From Thomasclavelia ramosa DSM 1402 (lineage in GTDB: Bacteria > Bacillota_I > Bacilli_A > Erysipelotrichales > Coprobacillaceae), in assembly GCF_014131695.1 (NCBI RefSeq), contig NZ_CP036346.1, forward strand, positions 1,178,001 to 1,242,000: a DNA stretch of 64,000 nucleotides. Reading direction: 5' to 3'. Numbering within the stretch: position 1 is the stretch's first letter; each line of letters begins with the position of its first letter. Of this stretch, positions 12,384 to 26,124 are shown one piece after another. Position numbers and translations under genes: made by a program. The notes under the pieces were generated by a model, which was given only the letters and a program-made list of their open reading frames with translations, did not search any database and was not told the DNA's origin.

Positions 12384-12649
12384 GCATTGGAAAGTTAGCC
12401 CTTGTTCAATGACTCTAAATCAATATGCCTAATCAAATTAATATTAATGATAGAACAAAAGAATTCAAAATAAGAAGATATTTATTTTATTTTTATTGCA
12501 ATTTTTTTATTATCTTATCATTGTTAAAGGTGAAAATGCCTAGCACTGAGTCTATCTGTTTATAAAGGTTTATTTAATAGTTGACAGTAAAAAATAGTTA
12601 GATAATAATTAGTAAATTAAAATTTTGATTGATAAGGGGGAGTATGGTG

Positions 12650-13831
12650 ATGGAGAATATATTAGTAATTGGTAACGGCTTTGATATTGCACATGGTTTT
12701 AATACTCGTTACGAAGATTTTATAAATTTTTGTAAGACTATTGCAACGGTTTATCAAGGATTTAAGGATAATCAATTCATATATCAAAATGAATATAATG
12801 ATATATTAAAAGAAAAATTAGATAAGGTTTTTAAAGAAAAGTCGGTTTCTGCCAAAGCAATAAAATATTTTTCAAACTTAACTCCAACATCTGAAACTTC
12901 TCAATTTATCAAAGCATGTAAAGAAAATTATTGGCTTACATATGTCTTAAAAAATAAAAGTATGATTGGGGATAAGTGGTCAGATCTTGAATATGTCATT
13001 GCTAAACAAATAGAGATATTATCATATATTTCAAATAATCTTAACTGGCATACTCGAGAAGAAACTATGCTCGCTTCACGATATTCTAGTAATTTAATTG
13101 AATTATTTAAGATTGTAACAGAAGAACGTGGAAATAATACCGATTTTCAGCATCAGATAGAACTCACAAAGAAACATTTATATCGAGAATTGGAAGAATT
13201 AACATGGTTATTAGAAATATATTTAACACGATTTTTAAATACTAAAACCAAGAAAATTGAATTATTTAAATATTTACCAGTAACTAAACTCATTTCTTTT
13301 AATTATACTGATACGTACACAAGAATGTATAAAAAAGAAACAAATACAGTTCATTATATTCATGGATTTGCTGCTAAAGATAGGATAAAAGAAGAAAATA
13401 ATATGGTTTTTGGAATTGGCTCAGAAATTAAAAATGTCACCGATAATGATAAGTATGATTATCTTGAATTTCAAAAGTATTATCAAAGGATTGTTAAAAA
13501 AACAGGTAATAACTACACTAAATGGTTAAATGACAATGAACAATTTTATATCTATTTTTTTGGTCATTCCTTAGATATTGTAGATGGAGATGTAATTAGA
13601 AAACTGATTCATTGTAAAAAAGCAAAAGTAATTATCTTTTATTATAATCAAAAAGCCTTGAATGCATTAGTTGTTAATTTAGCAAAGATTTTAGGAAAAG
13701 ATGAACTTATTCAATTCACTAATGAAGAAAAAATCACTTTTTATAAATCTGATGATTTTGAAATAATTAAAAAACTTAAAAATACAATGTATCAAACTCG
13801 TCATGAGAAGCTTAAGAGTACAGTTAGATAA
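12650..13831 (+). CDS. AbiH-like phage abortive-infection protein
   Basis: About 394 residues opening ENILVIGNGFDIAHGFNTRYEDF, the diagnostic N-terminus of the AbiH family (PF14253), with a nucleotide-binding-like GNGFD motif. The central and C-terminal parts are helical, with FNYTDTY, VHYIHGF and FFGHSLD segments as in other members. AbiH was described as an abortive-infection protein in lactococci; its mechanism is not established. Starts at ATG 12644 or 12650 are both possible behind AAGGGGG; 12650 gives the better spacing. No other defence genes are adjacent. Confidence 0.8.
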   Translation: MENILVIGNGFDIAHGFNTRYEDFINFCKTIATVYQGFKDNQFIYQNEYNDILKEKLDKVFKEKSVSAKAIKYFSNLTPTSETSQFIKACKENYWLTYVLKNKSMIGDKWSDLEYVIAKQIEILSYISNNLNWHTREETMLASRYSSNLIELFKIVTEERGNNTDFQHQIELTKKHLYRELEELTWLLEIYLTRFLNTKTKKIELFKYLPVTKLISFNYTDTYTRMYKKETNTVHYIHGFAAKDRIKEENNMVFGIGSEIKNVTDNDKYDYLEFQKYYQRIVKKTGNNYTKWLNDNEQFYIYFFGHSLDIVDGDVIRKLIHCKKAKVIIFYYNQKALNALVVNLAKILGKDELIQFTNEEKITFYKSDDFEIIKKLKNTMYQTRHEKLKSTVR

Positions 13832-18566: not shown

Positions 18567-20066
<1,500 letters not shown>

Positions 20067-20068
20067 GG

Positions 20069-20092
20069 AGGGAAATAAAATTCCCTTTTTTT
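20069..20092 (+). terminator. Intrinsic terminator of the GH1 gene
   Basis: AGGGAA (20069-20074) and TTCCCT (20081-20086) with a 6-base loop and seven T. Confidence 0.75.
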
Positions 20093-20163
20093 AAATTTTA
20101 ATCGGGTCTATTTATAATTTAGGTTAATATATTTAAAGGAGGAATGATTAGGAGGAATCATAG

Positions 20164-21183
20164 ATGTGTACAGCAATAAAGATATATTCAGATAATGGAG
20201 ATATTTATTTTGGTCGAACAATGGATTTTTCATTTGAATTAAATCCTGAACTTTATTATATTCCTGCAAAATACCAGTGGCGCAATGTTCTAAATACTCA
20301 TGATATTGAAAATAAGTACAATATTCTTGGTATCGGGCAAGATGTCTCTCCTGTTGCTTTAAGTGATGGTGTTAATGACCATGGATTTGCAGTTGCGGCA
20401 TTATATTTTTCTGGGTTTGCTCAATATGATGGGCTAAAAAAAGATAATACATCAATTATCCCGATCGCTGCTTTTGAACTAGTTTATTTTTTATTAAGTC
20501 AATGTGCTTCAGTAAAAGAAGCTCAAGAATTAATAAAAGTCATCAAAATTATTGGTGTAGAAGATAGTATTACACATATAGCAGCTCCTCTTCATTGGAT
20601 AATAAGCGGTGCAAATAACAATTGTATGGTGATTGAAAAAACAATAGATGGTCTACATGCGATTAATAATCCTATTGGTGTTCTTGCAAATAGTCCAGAT
20701 TTTTCTTGGCATATGACTAATTTATGAAATTATTACAATTTATCGCCATATCAATTTCAAGAAGCAATATGGAACAATATAAAACTTACTCCATTTGGAC
20801 AAGGTGCAGGAACATTAGGCTTACCAGGGGATTATACACCACCATCACGTTTTATTAGAGCAGCATTTCAAAAAACATATACAGATATTCCAATTGATCG
20901 TCATCAAGCTGTGATAACTTGTTTTCGGATCATGGAAACGGTCAGTATTCCTAAAGGGGTCGTCATTACAGCAAATCAAACTTCTGATTATACTCAATAT
21001 ACGATGTTTATTAACTTAGCAACTCGAGAATATTATTTTAAAACATATTGGAATAATCAGATAACAAGAGTTGAATTTCCTCAATATGATGAAAAAGATA
21101 TGAAAATGCTTTCATTAGGACCGTTAAATCAAACGATTGAATTTAAAACTAGAAGTATTTTTTATAAAAGGATGTGTTGTTAG
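20164..21183 (+). pseudogene. Choloylglycine hydrolase family enzyme interrupted by one in-frame TGA
   Basis: Codons 1-187 run to a TGA at 20725-20727, and the same frame continues without another break to TAG 21183, about 339 codons in all, the usual family length. Catalytic residues are visible: Cys2 (MCT), Arg18 and Asp21 (FGRTMDF), Asn near 176, and an Arg in PSRFIRAAF in the second half. Position 81 is Tyr (ALYFSG), where bile salt hydrolases tend to have Asn and penicillin V acylases Tyr, so the ancestor may have been acylase-like. A CGA (Arg) to TGA change would explain the stop. The first fragment alone lacks half the fold and is unlikely to work. Confidence 0.9.
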
Positions 21184-21197
21184 ATACATCTTTTTTT
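21166..21197 (+). terminator. Intrinsic terminator
   Basis: AAAAGGATGT pairs with ACATCTTTT (21186-21194) with one bulge, followed by T residues to 21197. Confidence 0.65.
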
Positions 21198-21248: not shown

Positions 21249-21278
21249 TTGAAGATAATCGAATGACTATGCTAGAAT
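21249..21278 (+). promoter_or_regulatory. nrdAB promoter
   Basis: TTGAAG (21249-21254), an 18-base spacer and TGCTAGAAT (extended -10, hexamer 21273-21278). Its position supports the nrdA start at 21302 over an earlier in-frame ATG at 21263. Confidence 0.5.
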
Positions 21279-21301
21279 GGCATTCTAAGGATGTGAAAAA
21301 A

Positions 21302-23809
21302 ATGTTGATACAAAAAAGAAATGGTCTTTTTCAAGACTATGATAACAACAAAATAGAAACAGCAATAAAAAAAGCTTTTTGCAGTTTATCTGAAACAATA
21401 AAAGATGATGAATTAAAAAAGATGATTGCAGATATTGAAAAACATATTATAGCTGATATGTCTGTTGAAGCAATTCAAGATTTGGTTGAAGAAACATTGA
21501 TGAAACATGGATATCTTCAAGTAGCAAAAGCTTATATTTTATATCGTCAAAAGCATACGGAGCAGCGATTGATAATTGATGAACTGCTTGCCTTATTGGG
21601 AGATCAAAATCTAAAAAAGGTTCTATTGAAGATTCACAAAGACTATCCTCAAGAAGAATATTCATTGCAATTATTATTAGTGAAATTTAAAACATTTTAT
21701 AAAGAGGGTATGAGTCATTTTGAAGCGTTGAAAATGTTGATGAAAGCGAGTGTGGAATTAATTAGTAAAGAAGCACCTAAATGGGAGATGATTTCAGCTC
21801 GATTTTTAACTTATGATGTAAATCAACAGGTTGACCAAAAAATGAATACCGCTGGTAGATATACTTTTTATGAGCGGATTAACTATTTAGCACAACAAGG
21901 TTATTATGGACAATATATTCTTGAAAGCTATTCAAAAGATGAAATAGACATGTTAGGACAGTATATTAGCGAATCGCGAAATGAATTATTTACATATAGT
22001 GGTCTTGAATTGATTGTTAAAAGATACTTGATTCAAAATCATGACCGCGAAATTATTGAAAAACCACAGGAAATGTTTATGTCAATTGCTATGCATTTGG
22101 CCATGAATGAATCAAATAGAGTTAAGTGGGCAAAAGAGATTTATGATATTTTAAGTACTTTAAAAGTGACGATGGCAACACCAACTATGTCTAATGCGAG
22201 AAAGCCATTTCATCAAATGAGTTCATGTTTTATTGATACTGTCGATGATTCATTAGCAGGAATATATAAAAGTATAGATAATTTTGCTAAAGTTTCAAAA
22301 AACGGTGGTGGAATGGGACTGTATTTTGGAAAAGTACGTGCTAATGGAAGTAGTATCAGAGGTTTCAAAGGAGCAGCAGGAGGTGTGATTCGATGGCTTA
22401 AACTTGTAAATGATACTGCAACAGCAGTAGATCAATTAGGAGTTCGGCAGGGAGCAGCAGCAGTATATTTGGATGCATGGCATAAAGATCTACCCGAATT
22501 TTTACAAATTAGAACAAATAATGGCGATGATCGAATGAAAGCACATGATATTTTTCCTGCGGTTTGTTATCCAGATTTATTTTGGAAATTAGCTAAAAAT
22601 GATTTGGAAGCTTCATGGTACATGATGTGTCCACACGAGATACATGAAGTTAAAGGTTATTATTTAGAGGATTGTTATGGTGAAGAGTGGGAAAGGAAAT
22701 ATTATGAGTGCGTTGAAGATGACCGAATTCCTAAACGCGTTATGACAGTTAAAGAAATTGTTCGTTTAATTATTAAATCACTAGTTGAAACAGGAACTCC
22801 TTTCACATTTAATCGCGATCATGTTAATAATTTTAATCCTAATCCTCATCAGGGAATGATATATTGCAGTAATCTTTGCACAGAAATTGCTCAAAATATG
22901 CAAGCGATGGAGATCTTACCGTCTGAGGAAATTGAGGTTAATGGTGAAACTATTATTGTTGAAAAAACAAAACCAGGTGATTTTGTAGTTTGTAATTTAG
23001 CTTCATTAACATTAGGTCATCTTGATGTCTTAAATGATGATGAATTGAGACACGTTATCAGTGTTGTAATTAGGGCTTTGGACAATGTAATTGATTTAAA
23101 TTATTATCCAATTCCTTTTGCCAAAATAACTAATCAAAAATATCGTGCGATTGGATTAGGAACAAGTGGTTATCATCATATGCTGGTAAAATTGAAAATG
23201 TCATTTGAAAGTGATGAGCATTTACAGTTTATTGAGCAGCTTTATGAAAAGATTAATTACTTTGCGTTGGAAGCTTCATGTGATTTAGCTAAAGAAAAAG
23301 GAAGTTACTCATTGTTTAATGGTAGTGATTTTGAAACAGGTGCATACTTTATAAAACGTCGCTATCAAAGTAAAGCATGGCAAAATCTTCAAGCTAAAAT
23401 CAAAGAAAATGGTTTAAGAAATGGATATCTTTTAGCGATTGCCCCAACCAGTTCAACTTCAATTATTGCTGGAACAACAGCAGCGGTTGATCCTATCATG
23501 AAAAAGTATTTTATGGAAGAGAAAAAGGGAAGTATGATTACTAGAGTTGCTCCCGACTTAGATTCTGAAACTTTTTGGTTATATAAAAATGCGCATTATA
23601 TTGATCAAGAGTGGATTGTTAAAGCAGCGGGAATTAGGCAGCGTCATCTCGACCAGTCACAATCAGTTAATTTATATATGACAAATGAGTTTACTTTTAG
23701 AAAGTTGCTTAATTTGTATATTAAAGCTTGGGAGTATGGTGTTAAAACATTATATTATGTTAGAAGCCAGTCTTTAGAAGTTGAAGAATGTGAATCATGC
23801 AGTTCATAG
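21302..23809 (+). CDS. nrdA: Ribonucleoside-diphosphate reductase, class Ia alpha subunit
   Basis: About 835 residues from ATG 21302 behind TAAGGATG. An N-terminal ATP-cone (RNGLFQDYDNNKIETAIKKAF) gives allosteric control. The redox Cys pair lies in SSCFIDT and in CSNLCTEI, with the thiyl-radical Cys in NLCTEI. NGGGMGLYFGKVRA and PTSSTSIIAGTT form the substrate site, and the C-terminal tail carries ECESC for thioredoxin exchange. It reduces ribonucleoside diphosphates with NrdB, 9 bases downstream. The protein should be intact and aerobically functional, notable for a presumed anaerobe. Confidence 0.95.
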   Translation: MLIQKRNGLFQDYDNNKIETAIKKAFCSLSETIKDDELKKMIADIEKHIIADMSVEAIQDLVEETLMKHGYLQVAKAYILYRQKHTEQRLIIDELLALLGDQNLKKVLLKIHKDYPQEEYSLQLLLVKFKTFYKEGMSHFEALKMLMKASVELISKEAPKWEMISARFLTYDVNQQVDQKMNTAGRYTFYERINYLAQQGYYGQYILESYSKDEIDMLGQYISESRNELFTYSGLELIVKRYLIQNHDREIIEKPQEMFMSIAMHLAMNESNRVKWAKEIYDILSTLKVTMATPTMSNARKPFHQMSSCFIDTVDDSLAGIYKSIDNFAKVSKNGGGMGLYFGKVRANGSSIRGFKGAAGGVIRWLKLVNDTATAVDQLGVRQGAAAVYLDAWHKDLPEFLQIRTNNGDDRMKAHDIFPAVCYPDLFWKLAKNDLEASWYMMCPHEIHEVKGYYLEDCYGEEWERKYYECVEDDRIPKRVMTVKEIVRLIIKSLVETGTPFTFNRDHVNNFNPNPHQGMIYCSNLCTEIAQNMQAMEILPSEEIEVNGETIIVEKTKPGDFVVCNLASLTLGHLDVLNDDELRHVISVVIRALDNVIDLNYYPIPFAKITNQKYRAIGLGTSGYHHMLVKLKMSFESDEHLQFIEQLYEKINYFALEASCDLAKEKGSYSLFNGSDFETGAYFIKRRYQSKAWQNLQAKIKENGLRNGYLLAIAPTSSTSIIAGTTAAVDPIMKKYFMEEKKGSMITRVAPDLDSETFWLYKNAHYIDQEWIVKAAGIRQRHLDQSQSVNLYMTNEFTFRKLLNLYIKAWEYGVKTLYYVRSQSLEVEECESCSS

Positions 23810-23818
23810 GAGGTAATA

Positions 23819-24859
23819 ATGGAACTTAAACAAAAAGCATTATTTAATGCTAAAGGTGATATTGATGTAAGAAAACGTCGAATGATAAATGGAAATACAA
23901 CAAATCTTAATGATTTTAATAATATGAAATATCAGTGGGTCAGTGATTGGTACCGTCAGGCGATGAATAATTTTTGGATTCCAGAAGAAATAAATTTGAC
24001 TCAAGATATTAGAGATTATCGTTTGTTAAGTGAGGCAGAACGAACCGCATATGATAAGATTCTTTCATTTTTAGTTTTCTTAGATTCTTTACAGACAGCC
24101 AATCTTCCTAATATTGGTGAGTATATTACAGCAAATGAAATTAATCTTTGTTTAACCATTCAAGCATTTCAAGAAGCGGTCCATTCACAAAGTTATAGCT
24201 ATATGCTTGATTCAATTTGTTCACCAACTAAACGAGATGAAATTTTATATCAATGGAAATTTGATGAACATTTGTTGAAGCGAAATGAATTTATTGGTGA
24301 ACAGTATAATGCATTTCTTGAACATAAAGATAGTTTTCATTTAATGAAAACGATTATGGCTAATTATATTTTGGAAGGAATTTATTTTTATTCAGGATTT
24401 ATGTTCTTTTATAATTTAGGGCGAATGGGTAAGATGTCGGGATCAGCTCAAGAGATTCGTTATATTAATCGTGATGAAAATACACATTTATGGTTATTTA
24501 GAAATATGATTATTGAGCTGCAAAAGGAAGAACCGACATTATTTACCCCTGAAAAGATTGAGGTTTATCGTAATATGCTAAAACGTGGAGTTGAAGAGGA
24601 AATTGCTTGGGGGCAATATGTCTTGGGAAATCGAATTGAGGGTCTAACGATGGATATGGTCAGTGATTATATTCATTATCTCGGTAATTTAAGAGCATTT
24701 TCATTGAATTTTGAACCATTATATGAAGGATTTGAGACAGAACCTGAAGCAATGAAATGGGTAAGTATTTATAGTAATGCAAATAACATTAAGACCGATT
24801 TTTTTGAAGCAAAATCTACTGCTTATGCAAAGTCTAGTGCTATTGAAGATGATTTATAG
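23819..24859 (+). CDS. nrdB: Ribonucleoside-diphosphate reductase, class Ia beta subunit
   Basis: 346 residues of the ferritin-like R2 fold. The metal ligands can be matched to E. coli NrdB: Asp in FLDSLQ, Glu and His in QEAVHSQSY, Glu in LEGIYF, and Glu/His in RDENTHL. The radical Tyr is kept four residues after the first His (HSQSY). It therefore belongs to the Tyr-radical di-iron/di-manganese type, not the Phe-containing Ic type. AGGAGG precedes ATG 23819 and overlaps the nrdA stop, so the two subunits are co-translated. Confidence 0.95.
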   Translation: MELKQKALFNAKGDIDVRKRRMINGNTTNLNDFNNMKYQWVSDWYRQAMNNFWIPEEINLTQDIRDYRLLSEAERTAYDKILSFLVFLDSLQTANLPNIGEYITANEINLCLTIQAFQEAVHSQSYSYMLDSICSPTKRDEILYQWKFDEHLLKRNEFIGEQYNAFLEHKDSFHLMKTIMANYILEGIYFYSGFMFFYNLGRMGKMSGSAQEIRYINRDENTHLWLFRNMIIELQKEEPTLFTPEKIEVYRNMLKRGVEEEIAWGQYVLGNRIEGLTMDMVSDYIHYLGNLRAFSLNFEPLYEGFETEPEAMKWVSIYSNANNIKTDFFEAKSTAYAKSSAIEDDL

Positions 24860-25857: not shown

Positions 25858-26124
25858 GTGAATCGGATGATTCTATTCGAAAAATCAATTTGTAAGATTG
25901 AAAAATGAGAATTATCCATATTGTGTGATGATGGAAATTAATGGGATGAGTTGTACCGATTGTCAGCAACAAATTGAAAATGAGTTTAATCAGAAGAAAA
26001 TTTATTTAGAACAGCATTTGGCTGTACTTCTACCAAAACAAGATGCAAGTGTGGAATCAGTCTAGGTTTTAATAGAGATAGTTGGCTATCGTGTTATTAA
26101 ATTAAAAAAATCTGAATTAAAAGA
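25858..26124 (+). pseudogene. Decayed heavy-metal-associated (HMA) domain protein
   Basis: A frame from GTG 25858 (NRMILFEKSICKIEK) stops, and the next frame continues YPYCVMMEINGMSCTDCQQQ, then IENEFNQKKIYLEQHLAVLL, a TAG, and VLIEIVGYRVIKLKKSE. GMSCTDC is the GMxCxxC metal-binding motif of MerP/CopZ-like HMA domains. One frameshift and one nonsense codon are visible. It lies in the leader of the ABC/FtsX operon, behind the DtxR-type operator, so it was probably the first gene of that operon. Confidence 0.7.

Follow-up and report, generated by a model that had tools for sequence, protein, structure and literature searches.

A choloylglycine hydrolase family gene interrupted by a single in-frame TGA in Thomasclavelia ramosa DSM 1402

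The interrupted frame and its setting

The window analysed here, a stretch of 64,000 nucleotides from the Thomasclavelia ramosa DSM 1402 assembly (contig NZ_CP036346.1, positions 1,178,001 to 1,242,000), contains a forward-strand reading frame at 20164-21183 that starts with ATG TGT (Met-Cys) and comprises 339 codons followed by TAG, with a TGA at 20725-20727 (codon 188) as its sole internal stop. Retranslation thus returned the frame of about 339 codons, broken only at codon 188, that the initial annotation of this DNA had described. In a profile search the full frame matched PF02275 with 294.9 bits against a cut-off of 20.4 over residues 2-307, covering 305 of the 316 profile positions on both sides of the TGA, and at the level of sequence this match to the choloylglycine hydrolase family is far above chance. 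All six active-site positions are occupied in the full frame (Cys2, Arg18, Asp21, Tyr81, Asn176 and Arg229), among them the catalytic Cys2, Arg18 and Asp21 named earlier, and Met20 is present as well. The closest proteins found are intact and 53-55% identical, and their alignment crosses the TGA without a frameshift. The features of the locus are as follows.

20090..20118, + strand: promoter-like TTTAAA-17-TATAAT; such sites are no more numerous in the region than expected by chance
20138..20157, + strand: AGGAGG, present twice ahead of the ATG at 20164; the ribosome-binding region looks intact
20164..20727, + strand: 5' part of the choloylglycine-hydrolase-family gene, 187 codons and the TGA, with Cys2, Arg18, Met20, Asp21, Tyr81 and Asn176
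20725..20727, + strand: premature TGA at codon 188, where 9 of 11 close relatives have Arg and 2 of 11 have Asn
20728..21183, + strand: remainder of the frame (151 codons and the TAG), presumably not translated; Arg229 is the codon at 20848-20850
21151..21183, + strand: last codons, beyond the end of the nearest relative (L029); the original stop codon may have been lost
21166..21195, + strand: terminator-like hairpin of 13 pairs (-12.2 kcal/mol) followed by T, with the TAG of the frame in or beside the loop; not among the hits of a consensus scan

The gene is preceded by a glycosyl hydrolase family 1 gene (18618-20066) and followed by genes for the large and small ribonucleotide reductase subunits (nrdA, nrdB type; 21263-24859). 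The glycosyl hydrolase gene has 46 matches in its own genome (G000:C1), 30-39 in each of three other genomes of the genus and two or none in the rest. A full-length large ribonucleotide reductase subunit occurs in just five of the nine genus genomes. Further upstream, an AbiH-family (phage abortive infection) gene of 400 amino acids lies at 12629-13831.

The two halves of the gene and its distribution

The initial annotation had held that a stop shared by all relatives, with many further changes, would speak against its reading, but the relatives do not share it: all 11 close relatives carry a sense codon at the site, namely AGA in seven, CGC in two (both Arg) and AAT (Asn) in two. An in-frame stop thus replaces the sense codon of the relatives in a frame that is otherwise kept, which is the pattern of a nonsense pseudogene. 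The ancestral codon could have been AGA or CGA, and neither can be chosen safely, since the change to TGA would be a transversion from AGA and a transition from CGA; the genome itself uses AGA for 29% and CGA for 16% of its Arg codons. The single CGA to TGA change proposed initially is accordingly one of two likely sources, plausible in itself but not favoured by the codons of the relatives.

The half of the gene beyond the stop is, by several measures, no more decayed than the half before it. Identity to L029 is 52.4% before and 58.2% after the stop, and identity to a further relative (L003) is 52.4% and 53.2%, respectively. At columns invariant in seven relatives, the query differs at 6 of 60 before the stop and at 2 of 36 after it, the latter being inside the range of intact proteins, and on a fixed tree its branch takes up 8.9% of the tree length before the stop and 7.4% after it. 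Given this similar conservation of both halves, in the identities as in the tree branch, the loss would be recent relative to the divergence from the known relatives, in keeping with the recent loss or polymorphism proposed at the outset; 'recent' is nonetheless a loose bound, because those relatives are distant.

The 3' end of the frame may carry a second lesion. L029 ends after Phe-Lys-His, whereas the frame in the window runs about 11 codons further, through the 5' arm of the hairpin, with its TAG at the loop. In another relative (L046, about 50% identical) the stop lies before the hairpin, and the DNA past that stop, if translated, resembles the extension in the window (KKTTFKRECC versus RSIFYKRMCC). 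This suggests that the natural stop of the gene has also been lost, a change that would do no further damage if the internal stop was already there, but since C-terminal ends vary among the relatives, the second lesion stays at the level of a suggestion. The earlier statement that every other codon is open therefore needs a qualification: there is indeed no second internal stop, but the frame exceeds its nearest relatives by some 11 codons and has its end within a terminator-like hairpin.

Among nine genomes of the genus, a full-length match was found only in this one and in one other (G008), where it is distant (34% identical). Copies from the same species were found neither in the genus set nor in plasmids or viral contigs, and the homologues in phage records did not exceed about 34% identity. 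In four genus genomes with the neighbouring nrdA (78-79% identity), the stretch of up to 1.5 kb upstream of nrdA contained no trace of the gene as a syntenic remnant. Because it is so sporadic in the genus (full-length match in two of nine genomes), the gene looks dispensable. One of the relatives, L047 (G315:C66:61245-62194; about 52% identical), is also broken, with an apparent frameshift and a stop near residue 43, or else affected by an assembly error. Our search of the literature on Clostridium ramosum / Thomasclavelia found nothing on this gene.

Explanations for the in-frame TGA

To place the stop in the context of its genome, we took a census of 460 kb of the same genome for stops joining two coding-like stretches in one frame. 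At 12 of the 14 such joints a start codon lies no more than 13 codons away, the picture given by ordinary neighbouring genes, and the joint at window position 26063 precedes a normal gene start. Only the stop at codon 188 is a TGA, and only this one lies inside a gene, without a start for 61 codons. As the sole stop of its kind in 460 kb, it makes both a reassignment of TGA and rampant sequencing error unlikely, and reassignment was rejected on the strength of this census. Selenocysteine at the TGA was likewise rejected, as the best tRNA-Sec candidate scored 46.5 against a cut-off of 47 and Cys is absent from this site in the homologues. That candidate is one among a dozen sub-threshold hits, which are typical of ordinary tRNAs and are also given by control genomes.

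We consider it probable that a single base change at codon 188, from AGA or CGA to the stop TGA, has recently put the gene out of action, and that this strain has no active enzyme from it. Before that change it would have been an intact, sporadically distributed gene, its product a cysteine N-terminal-nucleophile amidase on the penicillin V acylase side of the choloylglycine hydrolase family. The ribosome would halt at the TGA and release a 187-residue fragment, which is predicted to be unable to complete the alpha-beta-beta-alpha fold and would then be degraded, so that no active enzyme would be made from the gene in this strain. Arg229 lies beyond the stop, and the active-site set is therefore incomplete in the translated product (residues 1-187). 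The second half should not be made either, because no in-frame ATG, GTG or TTG occurs until 61 codons past the TGA, and the one found there lacks an evident ribosome-binding site, which speaks against a restart of translation past the stop. With one strain as the basis, the change could also be clonal and confined to a single isolate.

A sequencing or assembly error, with a sense codon in the true sequence and hence an intact gene, is the less likely of the ways to account for a frame that is exactly one substitution from intact and whose tail past the TGA shows no decay, although a base-calling error is the main remaining doubt about the stop. A comparable break occurs nowhere else in 460 kb of the assembly, the genome forms a single contig with a completeness rating of 100%, and the site has no homopolymer. 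In addition, if the natural stop has indeed been lost, with extension into the terminator, this would testify independently to relaxed constraint. The open and conserved frame past the stop might also point to programmed or inefficient read-through of the TGA (recoding or a leaky UGA) yielding some full-length enzyme. This is very improbable given that the site holds Arg, Asn, Gln or one of a few other residues in the homologues but never Cys or Trp, that the tRNA-Sec score is under the cut-off and that codon 188 is the only TGA interrupting a coding frame in 460 kb; low and regulated read-through, with the acylase made only under certain conditions, is slightly less probable still. Equally slim is the chance that the 187-residue protein is functional itself, for instance as a binding or regulatory fragment. 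It does retain five of the six catalytic positions, behind an intact ribosome-binding region, but it is without Arg229 and without the second half of a fold that forms one domain, the conservation extends past the stop into sequence that a short form would not need, and matching genes elsewhere are overwhelmingly full length. A recent nonsense pseudogene therefore remains our preferred reading.

Enzyme class and comparison with known systems

The initial annotation leaned towards penicillin V acylase (PVA) rather than bile salt hydrolase (BSH) because of Tyr81, and this lean holds in part. The aromatic residue at 81, Met20 and the branching with known PVAs are traits of that class, whereas the Asn81 of BSHs is replaced by Tyr, and the best match of solved structure is the PVA 2OQC (240 bits), with 3PVA at 205 bits. 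In the tree, the query, its relatives and both PVAs split from the two BSHs included with 100% support. On the other side, an aromatic residue at 81 alone does not confer PVA activity according to a review, and the query scores 293.9 bits on the NCBIfam equivalog model for PVA (NF058572), short of its cut-off of 600. Nor is the cut-off of the BSH equivalog (NF038245; 290 bits against 350) reached, and the intact closest relatives are likewise under both, while a control from the BSH clade in the same taxonomic family (L016) scores 491.6 bits on NF038245. A fair label on these grounds is 'PVA-like'.

For annotation, no active enzyme should be assigned to the strain on the strength of 20164-21183; for an intact version of the gene, penicillin-V-acylase-like would have been a likelier label than bile salt hydrolase. 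The search of the genome found no other standard member of the bile-salt-hydrolase type, and a family-based prediction of bile deconjugation for the strain should therefore be negative. Besides the interrupted gene, the family turned up in the genome once more, in a distant Ntn-hydrolase-like protein matched at 25 bits and of a kind present in most genomes of the genus.

Compared with known systems, the frame shares Cys2, Arg18, Met20, Asp21, Tyr81, Asn176 and Arg229 with the Gram-positive PVAs (2OQC, 3PVA) and lies on the same side of the fully supported split, but it is broken by the TGA and, at 294 bits, falls below the PVA cut-off. With the BSHs (PDB 4WL3, 2BJF) it has in common the family and five of six catalytic residues, but differs in Tyr81 instead of Asn, in belonging to the other clade and in its score below the BSH cut-off. 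Its fate has a published counterpart in the bsh gene of Streptococcus gallolyticus subsp. macedonicus, a member of the same family with a premature stop that is presumed to be non-functional (PMC12445087), although that gene belongs to another organism and is a BSH where the present one is PVA-like. The literature thus already describes bile salt hydrolase genes with premature stops, and the gene described here is probably an ordinary nonsense pseudogene of a known enzyme family.
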